DNA from: Armatimonadota bacterium
Lineage (GTDB): Bacteria > Armatimonadota > Fimbriimonadia > Fimbriimonadales > Fimbriimonadaceae
Reading direction: 5' to 3'
Assembly (NCBI GenBank): GCA_027451905.1
Contig: DAIDHV010000001.1
Coordinates: 472,667-536,666 of the forward strand
Length of the DNA: 64,000 nucleotides
Position 1 is the stretch's first letter, and each line of letters begins with the position of its first letter. Made by a program: the position numbers and the translations under genes. This document shows, in pieces, positions 22,326-38,355 of this stretch. The notes below the pieces were generated by a model. That model ran no database searches. It was not told where the DNA came from and worked only from the letters and a program-made list of their open reading frames with translations.

Positions 22326-24326
22326 CTATGGCACAGCTGTCTTCTTCAGAGCATATCCGCTGACTGGGAAGACAAACCGATTCCCTAGTGAGTCTGGTAC
22401 TGGTCCCGGGCTATCAGCCACGTTCGCTCCACCTACTCTCCAATACACCAAACTTGCATTTCGGATGAACGCAGGGGTCGTGGCTGCATTCAAATTGTAA
22501 GCCTGAGTTGTTACCGTGCCAGACTGGGAAGACTGGAACACAGGGAACGAGTAAGTATCAATCTTAAGGAACTGAGGATCTGCCGAAACTTCCAACATGT
22601 AGCTAGCAGTGAATGGCGTGCTTGCCGTCACCACCGAAGTTACTGAGAAACTTACCGGGCCGGTTGCAGTTGCGCCATTGGCAGGGCTTGTTCCGGTTGG
22701 AGGAGCAATCGGGGTCACCTGGCCAGACTGGGAAGATGGAGGCGACACGAACCAGCAATAAGTGGTTCCGGTGGTCGTTCCAGTCGATCCCGTGGTACCA
22801 GTTGTGCCGGTTGCCGTTGTGCCTGTCGTACCTGTCGTACCTGTCGTACCAGTTAAGCCAGTTGTACCCCCGGTTGTTCCGGTTGTTCCTGTTGTACCGG
22901 TGGTGCCGGTTGCAGTTCCAGTTGTTCCGGTGGCAGTAGTTCCGGTAGACAGTCCACCAGTGCCGCCGCCTGTTGTGCCTGAAGAATTTAACAATCCAGG
23001 GACGTCAAGCGCATTGAGCATGTAGACCAGTTCTACGGAGTAGGTGTAAGGCCGACCAGGGACCAATGCAGTTGTTGACACGGGGGTTTGCCCAGGTCCA
23101 CCGACGCAAGCAACTTGAGGCCAAGGTGTCACGCCGCTGTCATATGTTAATCCTGTTTGCGGAGTTACCGAATCGTAACCCACCGTGCTGTGGCCAGGAG
23201 CCACCGCGACTGGGGTTCCCGCAACATCGCTTCGGAAGATCAAGAACTGCTGATTCTCAACCGAGCTCTTAGCAAATCCATCGGGCGAGAAGCTGATTTG
23301 AACACCAGGCACGTTGTTAGTATTGACATTATCAAGCGCACTCGCAACAACCCCACCCACCGGTGCAGTTGAAGAGCCCTTGCCTCCACCAAGCAGCAAT
23401 GCCATCAGACCAACAACAAGGAGCACGGAAATCAAAGCCGAATCATTTGAGTGACTCTTGGGTTTGATAATGTGGACACCGCCACTGTTGGTGAAATTGG
23501 ACGCCACATGAGGCACTTGGAAGATAACTCTTACCGTGTCTCCAGGCTGAATGCCCTGAATTTCCTTGACGAGCTTCACCGTGGATTGATCAGGTTGAAC
23601 ATCCTCGATTTTTCCGATTCCAACTTCCAATGAACCACGATCAATAATGACCGTCTGGCCATTTTCAAACCCGGTTCTGGTTCCTTGGTTCATCAAAGCA
23701 GAATTGACATAAGTGTTCAAGACCGTACCAACCGGTAAGGTTTGACTGATGATCTTTTGAACCGAATCACTGGCTGCCTGATCAAGCGCGTCAGCAAGCA
23801 TGTCTGCGTCGCTGGTGCTCATTGAACGGACGGGTGATGAAGCCGATAGAGCCGCACCATTAATTGGCAGACCAGACGAAACGTCAACCGCCTCACTAGT
23901 CATGATCACTTGAGCTTGCTTCCCACCGTCAACGTCAACAACCCTAGAGTTGACAACATGGCCGGTAATAAGCACTTTGGCGCGAAGCGCCTGCCCAACT
24001 CTCAAAAGGCTGGTCTGGTCAACCACAGGTGACACATATCCCAAACTTTCGATCTGCCGATTAACCTGGTCATTAGATGCCACATCAATCGGAGGGTTGA
24101 AGCTCTGAGCCGCTTTGGATAGTTCTGTTTGGAACTGATCCGATGCAACTGGTCCAAGCTTTCCACCATGATCGTCTACAAACGGCATAACCGCCCACTC
24201 TTGTCTAGTTACAAATTGAGCTTGTGCCCTCAGCACCAAGCCCAATGTAAACGACGGCAACGTTACCGTTACCGCAACGAATTGACAGGTCAGTTTGCCT
24301 GGCAATGTATCAAAAAAACGCCTCAC
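22326..24326 (-). CDS. CsgG/FlgT-like exported protein with Thr-Gly repeat
   Basis: 666 residues from GTG 24326. An N-terminal hydrophobic stretch, then residues about 40-180 (EWAVMPFVDDHG, FQTELSKAA, VLRVGQALRAKVLITGHVV) resemble the CsgG/TolB-N fold of outer-membrane secretion lipoproteins. Around 200-265 a small beta domain (GFENGQTVIIDRGSLEVGIGKIEDV) is like the FlgT C-terminal domain. A hydrophobic segment (ALISVLLVVGLMALLLGGG, about 290-308) follows, then a Thr/Gly repeat (447-521) and a beta-sandwich tail. AAGGAGG lies 12 nt before the start. First gene of the surface cluster, with its own strong promoter. Surface assembly or secretion role inferred. Confidence 0.65.
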   Translation of the reverse strand: MRRFFDTLPGKLTCQFVAVTVTLPSFTLGLVLRAQAQFVTRQEWAVMPFVDDHGGKLGPVASDQFQTELSKAAQSFNPPIDVASNDQVNRQIESLGYVSPVVDQTSLLRVGQALRAKVLITGHVVNSRVVDVDGGKQAQVIMTSEAVDVSSGLPINGAALSASSPVRSMSTSDADMLADALDQAASDSVQKIISQTLPVGTVLNTYVNSALMNQGTRTGFENGQTVIIDRGSLEVGIGKIEDVQPDQSTVKLVKEIQGIQPGDTVRVIFQVPHVASNFTNSGGVHIIKPKSHSNDSALISVLLVVGLMALLLGGGKGSSTAPVGGVVASALDNVNTNNVPGVQISFSPDGFAKSSVENQQFLIFRSDVAGTPVAVAPGHSTVGYDSVTPQTGLTYDSGVTPWPQVACVGGPGQTPVSTTALVPGRPYTYSVELVYMLNALDVPGLLNSSGTTGGGTGGLSTGTTATGTTGTATGTTGTTGTTGTTGGTTGLTGTTGTTGTTGTTATGTTGTTGSTGTTTGTTYCWFVSPPSSQSGQVTPIAPPTGTSPANGATATGPVSFSVTSVVTASTPFTASYMLEVSADPQFLKIDTYSFPVFQSSQSGTVTTQAYNLNAATTPAFIRNASLVYWRVGGANVADSPGPVPDSLGNRFVFPVSGYALKKTAVP
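22762..22985. repeat. Low-complexity (GTT/GTA-CC) coding repeat
   Basis: About 220 bp of short imperfect repeats on the theme GTTGT(T/A)CC(G/T) encode a run of TTGTTG-like residues (447-521) of the minus-strand CsgG-like protein. Such a tract is likely to be a flexible linker and prone to slippage and length change. The plus strand shows long open frames here only because of the repeat. Confidence 0.85.
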
Positions 24327-30159: not shown

Positions 30160-32481
30160 CTATGAGCCTTCGATCGTGTGACTTCCTGACTTAAGCTCCA
30201 CTAGGGAGCCCTTGAAAGGCTTGCCATCAACTTTGGTAATTTGATTTGGAAGGGCAAATTTAGCCTGAACGCCATTCGGAATTTGCACCGTCACCGTCAA
30301 CATCGAGCCATCATTGTGGGCTGCGCTCACTTTGAGAATTCCGTGAGGAGTTGGGACTTTGCCTTTGGCCCACTTTAGATCCCCCAAATGAGGCTCGATA
30401 GTGCAGGTTGCAAATCCAGGACCGGTTGACTTCACCCCGAGGACAAACTCTGTGAGATAGTTGGTAGGTCCAGCCGACCAGCCATGGCACAAGCTCACTT
30501 GATAGCCGGCGTCGGGGTTATTATGGTTGTCCCAAGCCAAATGGGCATGAAAATGATCTTTCTCCCAAAACGGATCGTAAACCTCATAAAAGGTGGTAGC
30601 CCCATCCAAGATCATCTGCCCCCAAAAGCTTCTGATATAGTTGATTCCCTGTTCAATATGCCCCGAATCTCCCATTGCCCTCAGAACAAAATTGCCGTAG
30701 TAGGGTGAAACGATATCGGTCCTTGGTCCTGTTTCAGGAGCGAAAATTCCAGCCTTGAAAATGTCATCAACTTCATCGGTTGTAGCCACTCCCGCATCGA
30801 TTGCCATCGCGTTTTCCTGCTCTCGAGTGCCAAAGGTTCCGTCGGTGGTCAGCAAATGGGCCTGGGCCGAGGCGGTGAGCTCCTTTGCCCATTTGGCATA
30901 CTTTTCTGCATTCTTTTCATCGCCAAGCTGCTTCAGGATAAAGACGGCTTCTTTGACCCCCTTAATCAGGTAAAGGTCAGTCGTAGCCCTTGCCGCCTCA
31001 GAATCGTTGCTAAGCCCGGGTGACCAGTCCACAAAAACCCATTCGTGGTGACTGTTGTCAAAGAGATCATCGCTGCCAACATCCTCTTTGCAGTATTTCA
31101 ACATTGTTAAGAGGGCTTGGTGTTGGCTTGCCAAATACTTTTTATCTCCGCTGTGGCGATAGAAATCAGCAAGGCCCGCCATCCAAGCATAGGAGTAGCC
31201 GGGGATTCCGTTGACGTTCTGGGTTGGCAAGTCGGTTTCTGGCTTTCCTCCCTGAGCATCTTGCCGAAGAAGCCGCATGGTTTGCTCCATAAGGAATCGG
31301 TCTGCAAAAACGTTGTTGATGACTTCTCCAGAAATCTCCAGGTCCCCCATCCATCGTCGACGGTCTCTTTTGGGAGCATCCCATATATTCCGCTGCATGC
31401 AAAGATGAGCCGTATAAGCTCCTGTATACCAAACCTTGTTGAGTAAAGAGTCCGAGCAATCAAAGCTGCCTAAGTACTGCACTGGATAATAAACAAAATC
31501 CATATGAACAGCCGCGTTCAGGGTTTTCTCGCTGGCAGGAATCGTTAAAGTGGCATACCGCAAGGCGGTGTACGGGCTTTTGCCAGAAACCGAGGTTGTC
31601 CATGGCCGATTCAAAGCCTCACCAACCGATTCACCGGTCCCAATCTCGATCCCCGTTCCATTAGATTGAACAATGATTCTTCCCGCTAGTTCCTTTCCAA
31701 AGTCGTAAATAACCCTCCACGTGGATTGACCGGTTTGGTCTGATTGGTCTTCAAAACTCTCAGAGCTAGAGGCAGAATGCCATACAAGATGGTCTTCCCC
31801 CGTATCATATGCCCACCTGACGGGCTGAATTGGCATGTGAATCATGTAGGGCGGCACTGACCTGATGGGAGTTGGCCAACCCCTTAAGGAATCACCCCAA
31901 GGCCCCACTCCTACTTTGCCTTCATCGGTTGCCTTTGTCCACGAACCATCCTGAAAAGAGCTCTCGTTCCAGTCCTTAGCAGGTACCGATTCGGCAGCTT
32001 TCCAACTCTTATCGGTAAGGACCAAAGCCTTGCCATCGACTTCTAATCTTGCCAAGACGCCGGCTTCCGCCGCCTGGTTATAAGCCTTGATGGCAATCGT
32101 GTTGACACCTTTTTTCAGATAAGGCAGAACATCTTCGGCTTGAACTCGTTGCCATAAATTGTCATCAGAGGGATCAACCGGAGACGAACCCACATTGTGG
32201 CCGTTGACATAAGCTATGAAGTGGTTATCGGCAGTGATGAAGAAAAGGGCTTTCTTTGGGATGGAATTGAGCCTAAAGCTCTTTCGCAGGTAAATGGTTT
32301 GGTTATCAGCGACGTTTGCCGTCCAAATCCAATCGCTATTTGGCGGGGACTTTCGGTGCCAGTCAATCTTCGGAATGGGCAGACCATAGGTTGGGTCTAA
32401 GGTTGGAGGCTTGACTTGGGCAACTCCCAACCCCGCGAACGAACCTAGAAAAAGAGAAGTGGCAACACGTCGAAAGTCCAT
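30160..32481 (-). CDS. Secreted GH78 alpha-L-rhamnosidase-like glycosidase
   Basis: 773 residues from ATG 32481, with a signal peptide (RRVATSLFLGSFAGLGVAQ). An N-terminal beta-sandwich (FFITADNHFIAYVNGHNVG, VNTIAIKAYNQAAEAGVLARL) is followed by an alpha/alpha-barrel with the GH78-type block WDAPKRDRRRWMGDLEISGE, where the acidic residues supply the general acid, then VDWSPG and, near the end, LCHGWSAGPTNYL before a C-terminal beta domain. The order matches bacterial alpha-L-rhamnosidases; other deoxy-sugar specificity is possible. TATACT lies 8 nt before the ATG. A frame extending upstream to 32583 would delete the signal position and overlaps the permease gene. It sits next to the ABC importer. 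Confidence 0.82.
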   Translation of the reverse strand: MDFRRVATSLFLGSFAGLGVAQVKPPTLDPTYGLPIPKIDWHRKSPPNSDWIWTANVADNQTIYLRKSFRLNSIPKKALFFITADNHFIAYVNGHNVGSSPVDPSDDNLWQRVQAEDVLPYLKKGVNTIAIKAYNQAAEAGVLARLEVDGKALVLTDKSWKAAESVPAKDWNESSFQDGSWTKATDEGKVGVGPWGDSLRGWPTPIRSVPPYMIHMPIQPVRWAYDTGEDHLVWHSASSSESFEDQSDQTGQSTWRVIYDFGKELAGRIIVQSNGTGIEIGTGESVGEALNRPWTTSVSGKSPYTALRYATLTIPASEKTLNAAVHMDFVYYPVQYLGSFDCSDSLLNKVWYTGAYTAHLCMQRNIWDAPKRDRRRWMGDLEISGEVINNVFADRFLMEQTMRLLRQDAQGGKPETDLPTQNVNGIPGYSYAWMAGLADFYRHSGDKKYLASQHQALLTMLKYCKEDVGSDDLFDNSHHEWVFVDWSPGLSNDSEAARATTDLYLIKGVKEAVFILKQLGDEKNAEKYAKWAKELTASAQAHLLTTDGTFGTREQENAMAIDAGVATTDEVDDIFKAGIFAPETGPRTDIVSPYYGNFVLRAMGDSGHIEQGINYIRSFWGQMILDGATTFYEVYDPFWEKDHFHAHLAWDNHNNPDAGYQVSLCHGWSAGPTNYLTEFVLGVKSTGPGFATCTIEPHLGDLKWAKGKVPTPHGILKVSAAHNDGSMLTVTVQIPNGVQAKFALPNQITKVDGKPFKGSLVELKSGSHTIEGS

Positions 32482-32569
32482 TTGCGCCAAGTATACAAGT
32501 AGATTCCAGGGTTTGCCAGACCTTCTTGGCGAAGGTTCTAAAGCCTCTTTCGGGTCAGCTAAAAAGTGG

Positions 32570-34351
32570 TTACCGACCGCCAAGGCCGCTTAAAGTCACA
32601 CCTTCAATAAAGTACTTCTGGGCAAAGAAGAACAAAAGCAAAACCGGAAGGATGGTAAGCACCGTAAACGCCATTAAAAGCCCATATTCTCCACCATGGT
32701 CTCCGTTGTAAAGAGCCAAAGCGTAAGTAATCGGCATGTGTTCAGGAGAACTGATATAGATCAGGGGCCCCATGATATCACCCCAAGTTCCCATGAAGGT
32801 CCAAATTCCGATGACGGCAAGTGCAGGCTTGATTTGGGGAATCATAACCTTCCAAAAAGTCCGCAAATACGTACAGCCGTCAATTTTCGCCGCGTCCTCA
32901 AGCTCCATTGGGATTTGCATGAAGAATTGGCGCAGCAAAAAGATGTTGAAGGCAGATGCAAAAAAGGCAGGCACCCACAAGGGTTTTAAGGTATCTATCC
33001 AGCCCAAAGATCGAAAGATCAAGAACTGCGGAAGCATGGTCACCGCACCGGGCAGCATCATTGTGCTTAAAACAAGCGCAAACAAAAAGTTCTTGCCGGG
33101 GAAGCGCATCCGAGAAAACGCGTAAGCCACAATTGACGAGCTCAGAATCGTCCCGACCACGTTAAGGACCACCAAAATCAGAGTGTTCTCTAAGTAAGTG
33201 AGGCCATAGTGAGTTGAAGGAGGCAGATAATCAAGGGCATCTGGATAATTCTTCCAGTCAAGCCCCACGTGTCTAACCTTCTTGACGTCTTTTTGAAGAG
33301 CAATATAGCTTTGGTTTTTCAGCTGAGGAGGAGACGTAATAATAATCTTGTCGCTACCATCTGGTAAGTCTTCCGCGTCAAAACCCACAATGGGCGTTCC
33401 CTTGTAAGTCCCTGAAACGATGTTGACGTCCTTTGGCACAAGTTTGAGCTTTGCGGGGTTCAAAGTCTCCGTTCTTCCCGCTATCGATGATGGATGGATG
33501 ACGTTGATGGTCCAAGTTCCATCAGGATTCTTGGACTGGACATCACCCACAATGCTCATGCCTTCCGCCCTGCCCTCATACATCGGGTCATTGGGGTCAA
33601 AGTAGGGCCGAGTTTGAGTGACCTTTGGAATCCAGATGATTCCATGGGCGGAAGACATGTCTTGGTCTTCCTTGAAGCTTGTTACCAGCAGCCATAGAAA
33701 TGGCAAAGCAAACAGGATCGAGCCGGTCAGGAGCATGGCATGAATAACCGCGATCTTCGCCCACCCTCTGGCTCGGGCCGCATTAGCCGCTGCCGCCATG
33801 GCAAAAATGGCAGCCACCGCTAAGACCACGAATCCTATTGCAACCGTCCAATGGATTGGAACGTACCCCTTGTACACAAGCACAATGGGCCCCTTGCCAA
33901 CCGCATCTTTGTCGAATAACTGGATAGCCAAAAAGGCAATTCCAGCCGCTATCCAGCCAAGAGCATTTTTAATTTTATTTTGCCGGACAACCTGGCTTGG
34001 CTCCGCAAAAAACTGAGCAAAGCAAACCCCAGCACCAACCAAGCAACCAAGAATCAGCCAAGTCACCAACGGCAAAACAAACCAAACCAAAGGAAGGTTT
34101 ATTGTGCCGGCGTGTAGGTTAGCAGGCTTCCAGCCTGTAACGCGAATCGCTAAAAACGCTCCGCTGAAGATAACGCCGAGAGCTCCAAGAACCCCATCGA
34201 AAAGGAAAGATTTTTGCCAGGACGAGCGCTCTTCCGGTAATGGTGCCGGCAAGTACATCCTTGTGAGGCAATAAATTGACCTGAATAGCAAGATTAGCCC
34301 GCCCCATCGCAGGACGCTTCCCAGCAAAAATAAGATTCCTCCTGCGATCAT
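32570..34351 (-). CDS. Sugar ABC importer permease (MalG-type) with extra membrane region and periplasmic insert
   Basis: 593 residues, about twice a normal MalG-type subunit. The first ~200 residues hold about five additional membrane helices. A standard first helix (AMLLTGSILFALPFLWLLVTSFK) follows, then an insert of about 140 residues with short beta-strand-like runs (MSIVGDVQSKNPDGTWTINV, VSGTYKGTPIVGFDAEDL), then the usual five helices and the ATPase-docking EAA loop (LEDAAKIDGCTYLRTFWKV). The start ATG overlaps the stop of the fusion gene (ATGA), so the two subunits form the translocation pore together. No ABC ATPase gene is nearby. Confidence 0.88.
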   Translation of the reverse strand: MIAGGILFLLGSVLRWGGLILLFRSIYCLTRMYLPAPLPEERSSWQKSFLFDGVLGALGVIFSGAFLAIRVTGWKPANLHAGTINLPLVWFVLPLVTWLILGCLVGAGVCFAQFFAEPSQVVRQNKIKNALGWIAAGIAFLAIQLFDKDAVGKGPIVLVYKGYVPIHWTVAIGFVVLAVAAIFAMAAAANAARARGWAKIAVIHAMLLTGSILFALPFLWLLVTSFKEDQDMSSAHGIIWIPKVTQTRPYFDPNDPMYEGRAEGMSIVGDVQSKNPDGTWTINVIHPSSIAGRTETLNPAKLKLVPKDVNIVSGTYKGTPIVGFDAEDLPDGSDKIIITSPPQLKNQSYIALQKDVKKVRHVGLDWKNYPDALDYLPPSTHYGLTYLENTLILVVLNVVGTILSSSIVAYAFSRMRFPGKNFLFALVLSTMMLPGAVTMLPQFLIFRSLGWIDTLKPLWVPAFFASAFNIFLLRQFFMQIPMELEDAAKIDGCTYLRTFWKVMIPQIKPALAVIGIWTFMGTWGDIMGPLIYISSPEHMPITYALALYNGDHGGEYGLLMAFTVLTILPVLLLFFFAQKYFIEGVTLSGLGGR

Positions 34352-36810
34352 TTATCAGCCTCATAGTGAACCCACTTTGGTGCGACGATAAACTGCAAAT
34401 AAGTGAGGCCAAAAATAACCGCAAAGATGACCCATGCTATTGCACTGGCGTATCCCATCTTGAAGTAGGAGAATCCTTGATCAAACAGATAATAAACCGG
34501 AACAATCAGGCTATTGGCAGGGCCAACCGGTCCATTGGGATCTCGCAAAACAAACACTTGGACAAAAATCTGAACCGCGCCAATGACTCCCATAATTGCG
34601 TTGAAGAACACAATCGGGCTCAGCATCGGCATTGTAACCTTCCAAAATGCCTTTGTATTGCTGGCACCGTCAAGCTCGGCTGCCTCATACAGAGTGTTTG
34701 GCACCCCTTTCAATCCTGCAAGCCAAAGAATCATCCCACTACCTGCCCCCCATAGGCCCATGAAGATCAAAGAAGGTTTAGCCCAGCTTTCGGATGTGAA
34801 CCACCCGGGCATTGGAATGTGCATCCACTTTTCTAAAGTTGCATGCCATGCCGCATTGAGTAGCCCTTTGCTTGGGTCGGGGGTCAACAACCACTGCCAC
34901 AAGACAACACTGGCAACGGTGGGGACAATGGCAGGAAGATAAAATGCGGTTCGATAAAATCGCATTCCCCTTACCGCTGCATTGAGTAGCAGGGCCACGG
35001 CAAGTCCGGTGGCAAGTCCTAACGGCACTCCAAAAAGCCCCAGATAGGCAGCGTCGTAGAAGGACTTGGATAAATCGGGCCAACCACTGGTAAACAGGTT
35101 GCGATAATTATTGAGGTAGTAAAAATGGGCAGGAGTTAAAACATTCCACTCGGTAAAGCTAAAGAGTAGCGAGGCAATCATCGGTCCAAAGGTAAAAACA
35201 AAAAAGCCGAAAAACCAGGGGGAAATAAATGCGTACGCCCACTTGGCTTCATTCCTATCCAGCCTTCCAATCTTCAAAAATTTGAACCAAATGACGAACG
35301 CTAAGATTCCGATCGCAATTAAAGCTGCCGAAAGGTAGGCGGCTATGTTCAAATCAATGATGGGATACCTATCTTCGTGATAATAAGCATCCAAATCTCG
35401 CTGAACTTGGGCTTGTCCTTGCTGCAATGCCCTTTTGATGCTCATTTTGCCACGAAGGGCTTCGTCTTGAGCACGCACCTGAGCTTGCCAAAGTTGGTTG
35501 CTGACAACCGTAGGGGGGCGAACTCTTCCGAATTCCGCCATTTTCTCGTGCATGGCAACACTGGCTTGAAATCTAGGATCTGCAGGCTTAAAGATTTTAG
35601 TTTGCATTTCGTTGGCAACACGGCTTGCCAACTGTCTGGGGATGTAGATTCTGCCTTTAGATTGATCCCACCTTTGCTGGGCATGATCCGCAATTTCCCA
35701 CCCCTTTAAACTTGTGGCAAATCTTATAAACTTCCAAGCTGCGTCGACGTGTTTGGCATTCCTTGGGATCGCATAGCAGAAACCTCCAAACCAAGTGATA
35801 AAAGTATCTTTGACATCCTTGAAACGGCCACGGTGGTAGTAGCGATCATCAGGAACTGGTGCCGGAGCAACCCCAAAATCGAGGCTAGGACCGTACCTTG
35901 CGATGCCGTCATCAATCCAGTCACCATCAACCTTCATCGCAATTTTTCCGATGATGAAAGGGTCGTTTTCATTGCCCTGAAATCCGCTTTCGAACTCTTG
36001 ATCCTTCTCGTATCCGCCCAAAATGTCATAGCCCTTCTTCATGAACTCAAGGGCTTGCTGAACGTACTTAGAATCTAAGGTACAGGTCCGCAAATCTGGA
36101 GACATAAAAGGGGCTCGGTTCTGAAAGGCATAGAGATAAAGCCAAGAGTTGCCTCCGTTCGGGATATATCCTGCCCTCTTCAATGTGCCGTCTTTATGGA
36201 ACTCGGTGAGAACCTTGCTGTAGGCCAGCAGTTCACTCCAGGTTCGAGGCGGACGGTTTGGATCCAGACCAGCTGCCCGCAATTTGGCAGCATCTTTTTT
36301 GAAGATAGATTTGTTGTAGTAAAGAATTCGGTTATCGGCTCCAGTTGGGATGCCATAAACGTGACCCTGGTAATTGGCCTCCGTCCATGGTGCCGAATAG
36401 TAGTCACTGGCCTTCGGATCATCTGGTTTGTTCTGATCCCGCTTCATTAATGGGTCTAGGGGCAAAAATGCGCCTCGACTAGCCCAATCCGAAACTTCAA
36501 ACCGATCTTGGTTGACGATATCGGGGGAAACATTGCCCACGATTGCGGTCATGAGCTTTTGATTGTTCATCCCGCCTGCCCCCATGCTAAGCACCCTTAG
36601 CTTGATGTCGGGATGCAACTTCTCGAACGCATCCTTGACCGCTTCAAAATCTTTACTGTCTGGCCCCGTTGCAACGCCCCAAATCGTCACGGTTGTGATT
36701 TTTGGTCCGGAAGCCTTAGCCGCGCCGCAGCCCTGAAGACCCAAAATCGTCAGCACGGCGGTCCCCACTGCAAGTGCGGTTTTGATCGATTGAGCGGCTT
36801 TGTTTATCAA
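34348..36810 (-). CDS. Sugar-binding lipoprotein fused to MalF-type ABC permease
   Basis: 820 residues from TTG 36810 (GGAGAGG 6 nt upstream). A lipoprotein signal ends LGLQGC (Cys28). Residues 35-480 are a family-1 extracellular solute-binding protein (TTVTIWGVATG, ILYYNKSIFKKD, GDWIDDGIARYG, ITWFGGFCYAIPRNAK). An extra helix (about 487-510, AALIAIGILAFVIWF) brings the chain back to the cytoplasm, and a MalF-type permease fills the rest with six helices and an EAA loop (LYEAAELDGASNTKAFWKV from 707). Topology is consistent: binding domain outside, linker helix, permease starting inside. Binding-protein fusions are known in glycine-betaine importers; I know of none as standard in the CUT1 sugar family. 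Confidence 0.9.
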   Translation of the reverse strand: MINKAAQSIKTALAVGTAVLTILGLQGCGAAKASGPKITTVTIWGVATGPDSKDFEAVKDAFEKLHPDIKLRVLSMGAGGMNNQKLMTAIVGNVSPDIVNQDRFEVSDWASRGAFLPLDPLMKRDQNKPDDPKASDYYSAPWTEANYQGHVYGIPTGADNRILYYNKSIFKKDAAKLRAAGLDPNRPPRTWSELLAYSKVLTEFHKDGTLKRAGYIPNGGNSWLYLYAFQNRAPFMSPDLRTCTLDSKYVQQALEFMKKGYDILGGYEKDQEFESGFQGNENDPFIIGKIAMKVDGDWIDDGIARYGPSLDFGVAPAPVPDDRYYHRGRFKDVKDTFITWFGGFCYAIPRNAKHVDAAWKFIRFATSLKGWEIADHAQQRWDQSKGRIYIPRQLASRVANEMQTKIFKPADPRFQASVAMHEKMAEFGRVRPPTVVSNQLWQAQVRAQDEALRGKMSIKRALQQGQAQVQRDLDAYYHEDRYPIIDLNIAAYLSAALIAIGILAFVIWFKFLKIGRLDRNEAKWAYAFISPWFFGFFVFTFGPMIASLLFSFTEWNVLTPAHFYYLNNYRNLFTSGWPDLSKSFYDAAYLGLFGVPLGLATGLAVALLLNAAVRGMRFYRTAFYLPAIVPTVASVVLWQWLLTPDPSKGLLNAAWHATLEKWMHIPMPGWFTSESWAKPSLIFMGLWGAGSGMILWLAGLKGVPNTLYEAAELDGASNTKAFWKVTMPMLSPIVFFNAIMGVIGAVQIFVQVFVLRDPNGPVGPANSLIVPVYYLFDQGFSYFKMGYASAIAWVIFAVIFGLTYLQFIVAPKWVHYEADK

Positions 36811-36833
36811 AAGGTCCTCTCCAGTGAGGTTAA

Positions 36834-37068: not shown

Positions 37069-38355
37069 ATGGAATCTCTATCTCAAGATGAAGCGTCAAA
37101 ACCTGCCAATAGTTCCCAATTAAAGTCTCCTTTTGGGCTCAAAAGTCTGCCTCCTTTGCCTGGGCTGATGCTCACCGTCTTCGTGGACCTCCTTGCCTTT
37201 GGCATGTTTATCCCCGATCTTCAGCTTCGAGGCAAAGAATTTGGTCTGAGTGGCATAGAATTGGGACTTCTCTTTGCAAGTTTTAGTGGAGCTCAGGTGA
37301 TTTCTTCTCCCTGGCTTGGGCACCTCAGTGACAACCGTGGAAGACGAGTCGTTTTGATTTCATCTTCGATTCTTTCGGTTTTTGCCTATCTGGTTTATGC
37401 AAATCTCAACCATCTCATCTTTCTGCTGGTTGTCAGCCGGGTTCTGCTTGGCATCGCTTCTAGCAATTTGGGAGTTGCCTTTGCCTACGCGGCCGACATA
37501 AGCACCGATGAGCAAAGGGCGAGAAGCGTGGGATCTTTAGGAGCAGCAGTTGGGGTCGGCTTTATTCTTGGCCCTGTTTTGGGGGCTGGCCTCCTCAAGC
37601 TTGGAGGCGGCGGCACAGCGGTGCTGGGATACACTGGCTCGTTCTTAGTCTTTCTCAACCTCCTGTATATTGTTTTCTTTTTGCCAGAGCCAATTCGAGA
37701 TCGTAAAGAATCTCAAAAAAGAAAAGCTCTGGATGCCTACAAAATTGCCTTCCAAACCCCCTCTCTTGCCATTCTGCTGGTGATGCTCACTTTCCTTTCC
37801 CTTGGCTTTACCAATCTAGAATCAACATTCTTTCTTCTTCTCAGCTCCTCTCACGGGCCCTACCACTTGCCCGATAATTCAGCAAGAACCGCTGGCGCCA
37901 TCTTGTTGGGCCTCGTTGGGGTCTGCTCTGCCTTTTCTCAGGGCTTCTTGGTGCGGGCTCTAGCCCCCAAGCTGGGCGAAGCCACCATTCTGCGAATTTG
38001 CTACCCTATCATGGGAATCCTCTTCTTTTTTGTGCCTTACTCGTCACTATGGCTGCCCGCGATTCTTCTCTTTGGCACGTTTGCACTCACCAGTGGATTA
38101 GCCAACCCTAGCCTGAACAGCCTGCTATCAAGGGCGGCTCCTGACGAGCTTCAAGGTTCAACCTTTGGGATTGCTCAAAGCTTGCAGGGGTTTGCGAGGC
38201 TCTTTGGACCTCTCATCAGCTTGCCCTTGTTTGCCATTAAGATCAGCTATCCGTACGAACTTGGTGCTGCTCTCATTGTCTTTGGCGCCGCAATCTCGAT
38301 GTTTATAAAATTGCCAGGATTGAACCAAACCGAGACAAAAATCGTCGAAGCCTAA
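37069..38355 (+). CDS. MFS transporter (TetA/sugar-efflux-like)
   Basis: 428 residues with about twelve membrane helices. The N-terminal half carries the MFS motif A between helices 2 and 3 (GHLSDNRGRRVVLISS) and motif C-like LGAAVGVGFILGPVLGAGL in helix 5, which is typical of drug/H+ antiporters of the TetA group. The N terminus (MESLSQDEASKPAN) is cytoplasmic. Upstream a TTTACGTAAA palindrome lies at 37034-37043 and TATAA abuts the ATG. Substrate unknown; it is not obviously part of the importer locus, which is divergent. Confidence 0.88.
   Translation: MESLSQDEASKPANSSQLKSPFGLKSLPPLPGLMLTVFVDLLAFGMFIPDLQLRGKEFGLSGIELGLLFASFSGAQVISSPWLGHLSDNRGRRVVLISSSILSVFAYLVYANLNHLIFLLVVSRVLLGIASSNLGVAFAYAADISTDEQRARSVGSLGAAVGVGFILGPVLGAGLLKLGGGGTAVLGYTGSFLVFLNLLYIVFFLPEPIRDRKESQKRKALDAYKIAFQTPSLAILLVMLTFLSLGFTNLESTFFLLLSSSHGPYHLPDNSARTAGAILLGLVGVCSAFSQGFLVRALAPKLGEATILRICYPIMGILFFFVPYSSLWLPAILLFGTFALTSGLANPSLNSLLSRAAPDELQGSTFGIAQSLQGFARLFGPLISLPLFAIKISYPYELGAALIVFGAAISMFIKLPGLNQTETKIVEA

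Follow-up and report, generated by a model that had tools for sequence, protein, structure and literature searches.

Does a single gene of an Armatimonadota bacterium really join a sugar-binding protein to its own membrane permease and, if so, what kind of importer would result? The gene in question lies on contig DAIDHV010000001.1 (C1) of a 2.87-Mb Armatimonadota genome (98% complete), within a stretch of 64,000 nucleotides (positions 472667-536666) which is hereafter called the window. It encodes a family-1 solute-binding protein (SBP) followed by a MalF-type permease, and a MalG-type permease gene adjoins it. The SBP-MalF fusion is a genuine, old architecture that extends across the phylum Armatimonadota. 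The complex is very probably a CUT1 (type I) ATP-binding cassette (ABC) sugar importer, in which the SBP would be a permanent N-terminal domain of MalF, working like GlnPQ and OpuA but with a heterodimeric permease. The domain order, the single frame, the extra helix, the partner gene, the conservation and the single MalK-type ATPase gene are the parts of this account that are based on sequence.

The fusion gene and its conservation

The initial annotation had described a binding domain, an extra helix and a MalF permease within one frame of 820 residues and had attributed them to a CUT1 importer with a fused binding protein. The description was borne out by coordinates (Table 1), Pfam and hydropathy, and the attribution is supported: SBP_bac_1 (residues 55-367, E-value = 1.3e-36, profile positions 10-302 of 307, above the curated cut-off) and BPD_transp_1 (residues 598-812, profile positions 5-181 of 184) were found in one frame, and EAA loops are carried by the fusion and by the MalG-type partner. 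The extra helix (mean hydropathy 2.59) is followed by the permease helices, six core helices being expected for a MalF-type permease. Concerning NCBIfam, the binding domain is closest to UgpB and the permease part to UgpA, GlcT and MalF, all with scores far under the curated cut-offs. Among the PDB matches listed, 4r9f (MBP1) stands closest to the binding domain and mycobacterial SugA and MalF to the permease, and none of the 25 chains covers both domains. Ahead of the MalF part of the window gene there is no ATG, only TTG and CTG codons without a convincing Shine-Dalgarno sequence, and thus the permease would most simply be made only within the fusion.

The fusion protein was searched against 291 Armatimonadota genomes and the printed matches were counted by hand, which gives a lower bound. 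At least 138 of them contain a match (45-60% identity) that spans the full length without interruption. A search for the same fusion elsewhere had been proposed when the gene was first annotated, and its outcome corrects the view of the fusion as a single oddity. All fused frames that were read directly (n = 65, 56 distinct) encode a hydrophobic helix placed after the SBP domain and ahead of the permease, its inner side bears a net positive charge in almost all of the 56 distinct frames, and alignment of the fusions revealed a strongly conserved SBP domain. Because the same uninterrupted frame recurs across the phylum and the extra helix is present in every frame read, the fusion is not an artefact.

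The lipobox that had also been annotated stands only in part. The LQGC motif of the window protein, with an unusual Gln at position -2, is plausible, but the lipid anchor is not conserved: by eye, a convincing lipobox occurs in only about five other members of the window's fusion type, and the signal of most orthologues ends in a type I (A-x-A) motif. The rarity of the lipobox fits a binding domain that is held by the fusion and not by lipid.

Two orthologues deserve separate mention. That of genome G217 (L062, contig C1, 2180721-2183102) has one in-frame TAG in the binding domain and is open on both sides of it; real inactivation and sequencing error are both possible. In genome G059 (L061:4233-7400) the longest frame begins about 245 residues upstream of the binding domain, and these residues look like an upstream open extension, not a domain.

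Table 1. Features of the fusion gene and of the adjoining genes, in window coordinates.
Feature	Position	Strand	Description and basis
SBP-MalF fusion gene	34348..36810	-	820 aa; TTG start at 36810; single open frame, 0 internal stops
Shine-Dalgarno-like GGAGAGGA	36815..36822	-	directly 5' of the fusion's TTG start; read from sequence
Export signal and lipobox LQGC (Cys28)	36727..36810	-	plausible lipobox, not conserved; hydropathy stretch 12-30
Family-1 solute-binding domain, complete	35380..36696	-	residues ~39-477; Pfam SBP_bac_1 and SBP_bac_8; PDB sequence matches 4r9f, 3k01
Linker, ~11 residues	35347..35379	-	residues 478-488, from last SBP helix to extra helix; alignment and hydropathy; SBP end estimated
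Extra transmembrane helix	35290..35346	-	residues 489-507, out-to-in, then basic KFLKIGRLDR; hydropathy
MalF/UgpA-type permease domain	34351..35256	-	residues 519-820; without P2 domain; Pfam, NCBIfam, PDB matches, hydropathy
EAA coupling loop EAAELDGASNTKAFWKVTMP	34627..34686	-	residues 709-728; sequence; invariant positions in alignment of fusions
MalG/UgpE-type permease	32570..34351	-	593 aa; 4-base overlap (ATGA) with fusion gene; Pfam, NCBIfam UgpE and MalG
MalG N-terminal extension	33767..34351	-	residues 1-195; about four to five predicted hydrophobic helices; hydropathy, AlphaFold model
MalG periplasmic insert	33278..33613	-	residues 247-358, between core transmembrane helices 1 and 2; two tandem ~50-aa repeats, putatively SH3-like (Tudor/KOW-like); AlphaFold2, Foldseek, VIA-align, hhalign
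GH78-type alpha-L-rhamnosidase gene	30160..32583	-	longest frame overlaps malG end by 14 bases; Pfam

Partner permease, ATPase and proposed mechanism

Besides the poor conservation of the lipobox, the first account of the importer overlooked that the partner MalG bears a membrane extension and a periplasmic insert of two putatively SH3-like repeats. The window MalG is about double the usual size, and an extended MalG adjoins the fusion at the orthologous loci that were opened. The N-terminal extension is fast-evolving and matched no Pfam family; VIA-align matches to its helices were dismissed as long-helix coincidences. The AlphaFold model of MalG is poor overall (mean predicted local distance difference test score, pLDDT, 53), with the insert mostly at 77-86 (range about 69-86). 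The two halves of the insert are homologous (hhalign probability 96.7%), and the second repeat (309-361) superposes on barrels of the Tudor/SH3-like kind (VIA-align, 47-51 residues aligned, 1.2-1.6 Å, Z about 7.5), a likeness that concerns a small common fold and a shallow alignment. The best Foldseek E-value for the insert was 2.3e-3, and no match to it was found in Pfam families or PDB sequences. At loci beyond the window's family the MalG partner is shorter (~370-455 aa), as is the insert region. Within the family the MalG core is 67-78% identical, against 51-61% for the binding domain.

The window genome holds four SBP-MalF fusions (on contigs C1 and C5, and two on C8), together with two unfused sets of SBP, MalF and MalG (C12 and C2, the SBP of the latter recognised by profile search). 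The C5 type (L046:4816-7296) is phylum-wide, 71 of 151 genomes having matches with E-values of 1e-60 or lower, many of them full length, and has no adjacent MalG gene; the second C8 type appears to be lineage-specific. Only one MalK/UgpC-type ATPase gene of the genome passes the curated cut-off (NF008653, full-length; 445 bits vs 141 for the next), so this ATPase is most likely common to all six importers, fused and unfused. The TOBE_2 domain model gave no match to a MalK-type ATPase in the genome, though the full-length UgpC model matched one. Multitask ATPases that serve several importers are known. An orphan MalG-type permease of 522 aa was also met (L049:4429-5997, genome G000, contig C14), with a different insert of ~290 residues behind its first helix; no MalF gene was recognised alongside, and the C5 fusion is a possible partner for it.

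From these parts we infer how the complex assembles, pairs with an ATPase and docks, what the MalG insert does and what kind of sugar is carried. The signal would export the chain and the binding domain would fold outside; after the short linker, the extra helix would bring the chain back to the cytoplasmic side, which would let the six helices of MalF take their normal orientation in the membrane. The initial annotation had proposed that the fused helix solves the topology, in agreement with its presence in 56 of 56 distinct frames. The adjacent MalG-type subunit would complete a heterodimer, in which case exactly one tethered binding domain is expected per MalF-MalG pair. A fixed stoichiometry and a high binding-site concentration close to the permease, both put forward in the initial annotation, may be consequences of the tether. 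The ATPase would most likely be the single MalK/UgpC-type protein, in common with other sugar importers. The tethered domain would close on the sugar, dock on its own MalF-MalG pair and open upon ATP binding, with no need for a free binding protein to diffuse in, and the MalG insert is probably a docking or capping element.

Three points weigh against this mechanism. At a mean pLDDT of 39.6, the fusion as modelled by AlphaFold from a six-sequence alignment is unusable and gives no support to the docking geometry; the ATPase is assigned to the fusion as the single candidate gene, encoded elsewhere in the genome; and the neighbours of the fusion vary between genomes and do not point to one sugar.

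Alternative roles of the fused domain have to be weighed as well. It might be an accessory or low-affinity site of a complex chiefly served by separate binding proteins, given that the two unfused sets of the genome supply free family-1 SBPs and that an apparently shared ATPase may allow parts to mix. We consider this unlikely, as those free SBPs adjoin their own permeases and nothing is missing from the fused domain, which is strongly conserved. Slightly less likely still is that the fusion is translated as one chain and cleaved after export, the working SBP being then free or lipid-anchored. The plausible lipobox of the window protein and of a few orthologues, redundant on a permanently tethered domain, would be accounted for in this way, but neither the linker nor the extra helix is missing from any fused frame examined, the helix would be pointless once the chain is cut, and most orthologues have lost the lipid anchor or never had it. 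A sensor that reports on sugars instead of importing them would agree with the lack of consistently linked sugar catabolic genes; it is nevertheless quite improbable, since both permeases have EAA loops, a MalK-type ATPase gene is present, and glycoside hydrolase genes adjoin in the window genome and in some others. Finally, an assembly or sequencing error that erased the stop between two ordinary genes is already refuted by the conservation of the fusion and its added helix described above, although SBP and MalF genes that lie side by side in one frame with a stop between them often occur elsewhere and get reported as long frames. A permanently tethered binding domain within a sugar importer is the reading that we prefer.

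Origin, distribution and neighbouring genes

In a tree of MalF domains the window's fusion type forms one clade (support 100/99), the C5 type is separate and far off on a long branch, and both C8 fusions fall among unfused permeases, so that four state changes are required. With MalF alone, a single clade of all fusions was not rejected by the approximately unbiased (AU) test (p = 0.166) and was recovered in none of 200 bootstrap trees. A joined alignment of SBP and MalF (45 rows) was also made, in which neighbouring genes were paired for the unfused sets; in the resulting tree an unfused clostridial pair (L097) adjoins the window's type (Shimodaira-Hasegawa-like approximate likelihood-ratio test support 99). 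AU tests on the joined data, performed on a 32-row subset with the simple LG+G4 model and a quick search, rejected one clade of all fusions (p about 1e-82). They also rejected a grouping in which the first C8 type joins the window's type (p = 2e-5), but not one that unites the C5 type and the window's type (p = 0.073). Repeated fusion, in at least two events, is therefore probable, with the reservation that trees alone cannot separate fusion from later splitting.

The survey of distribution covered Armatimonadota, one Clostridia-containing phylum and plasmids. In the Clostridia-containing phylum (299 genomes, 82 with a match), no fusion was found among the 16 long-frame loci that were fetched. 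These Bacillota candidates had been reported as frames of 740-870 aa; 15 of the 16 proved to be separate SBP and MalF frames (in L080, one of them, the permease part is also broken), and L081, a clostridial permease of 777 aa, has no SBP domain by Pfam and is not a fusion. Among the best 40 of 2158 matching plasmid records no fusion was seen, the annotated ones listing separate genes or naming only one, and SBP and permease are separate in all seven plasmid loci that were opened. A Sinorhizobium plasmid (NZ_CP104129.1, L068:1928-3715) contains a frame of 595 aa that joins the C-terminal OB/TOBE part of a MalK to a family-1 binding protein; it is topologically odd and perhaps a frame accident.

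Concerning the neighbouring genes, the glycoside hydrolase family 78 (GH78) gene is probably co-transcribed with the fusion-malG pair in the window genome only, as no GH78 gene was found beside the inspected orthologues of the fusion. At three other loci (L009, L010 and L055) the gene pair lies near GH31, LacI-type and GH13 genes, identified by Pfam for L009 and by sequence clustering for the other two, which suggests alpha-glucans as the substrate in those three genomes. Across the fusion family, no conserved sugar gene neighbourhood was found among the loci inspected. A major facilitator superfamily (MFS) gene is a recurrent neighbour, being divergent at 37069-38355 in the window, and genes related to it flank the fusion in six further genomes. 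At a greater distance, the window encodes a protein of 666 aa (22326-24326) with no Pfam or NCBIfam matches.

Comparison with known importers

The fusion and its partner share with CUT1 importers (E. coli MalEFGK2, UgpBAEC and mycobacterial LpqY-SugABC) the SBP_bac_1 domain, MalF- and MalG-type permeases with EAA loops that would form a heterodimer and, probably, an ATPase of the UgpC/MalK type. They differ in that the SBP is a domain of MalF, placed ahead of an extra helix, in that MalF has no P2 domain, and in that MalG has additional N-terminal helices and a tandem insert that is putatively SH3-like. In E. coli, the P2 domain of MalF is an insert between core helices 1 and 2. The MalG insert is likewise a periplasmic domain between the first two core helices; however, the subunit that carries it is of MalG type and its fold may be a tandem of SH3-like repeats, and the likeness is one of position.

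No CUT1 SBP-permease fusion was found to be reported in the literature searched, and the architecture is apparently undescribed for sugar importers, tethering itself being known for importers of amino acids and osmolytes. The excerpt consulted of the Fimbriimonas ginsengisoli genome paper gives totals of 68 permeases and 28 binding proteins and does not mention a fusion (PMC4072686); given such fusions, counts of this kind in Armatimonadota genomes need careful reading. Whether Armatimonadota hold an unrecognised class of importers, in which several independent fusions made the SBP an obligate part of MalF, with exactly one tethered site per complex, a compensating MalG docking domain and a shared ATPase, is in our judgement an even bet. 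The presence of both kinds of importer in one cell, probably on a common ATPase, would serve as a natural experiment to explain why free SBP is kept in excess by most sugar importers.

Opu binding domains are located after the permease, belong to another family and are present in two copies per homodimer. Pfam gives only SBP_bac_1 and SBP_bac_8 for the window binding domain, not osmoprotectant or amino-acid families, and the genes place a distinct MalG-type partner next to the fusion, pointing to a heterodimer, unlike the homodimeric permeases of OpuA and GlnPQ. The comparison with OpuA made in the initial annotation holds as to the tether, since OpuA has an 11-aa linker and a transmembrane anchor (PMC11065425) and here about 11 residues and one added helix tether the binding domain; OpuF is a permease-SBP fusion too, according to a passage of PMC6207618 in which it is cited. 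In GlnPQ the binding domains are tethered via a 19-aa linker (PMC8025302) and, as here, they are N-terminal to the permease behind a short linker, but each chain of the GlnPQ homodimer bears two of them, whereas the present importer would be a heterodimer whose single binding domain is drawn from another SBP family. As importers of the OpuA and GlnPQ kind carry two or four tethered domains per complex, a sugar importer with a single one would separate tethering from inter-domain cooperativity.

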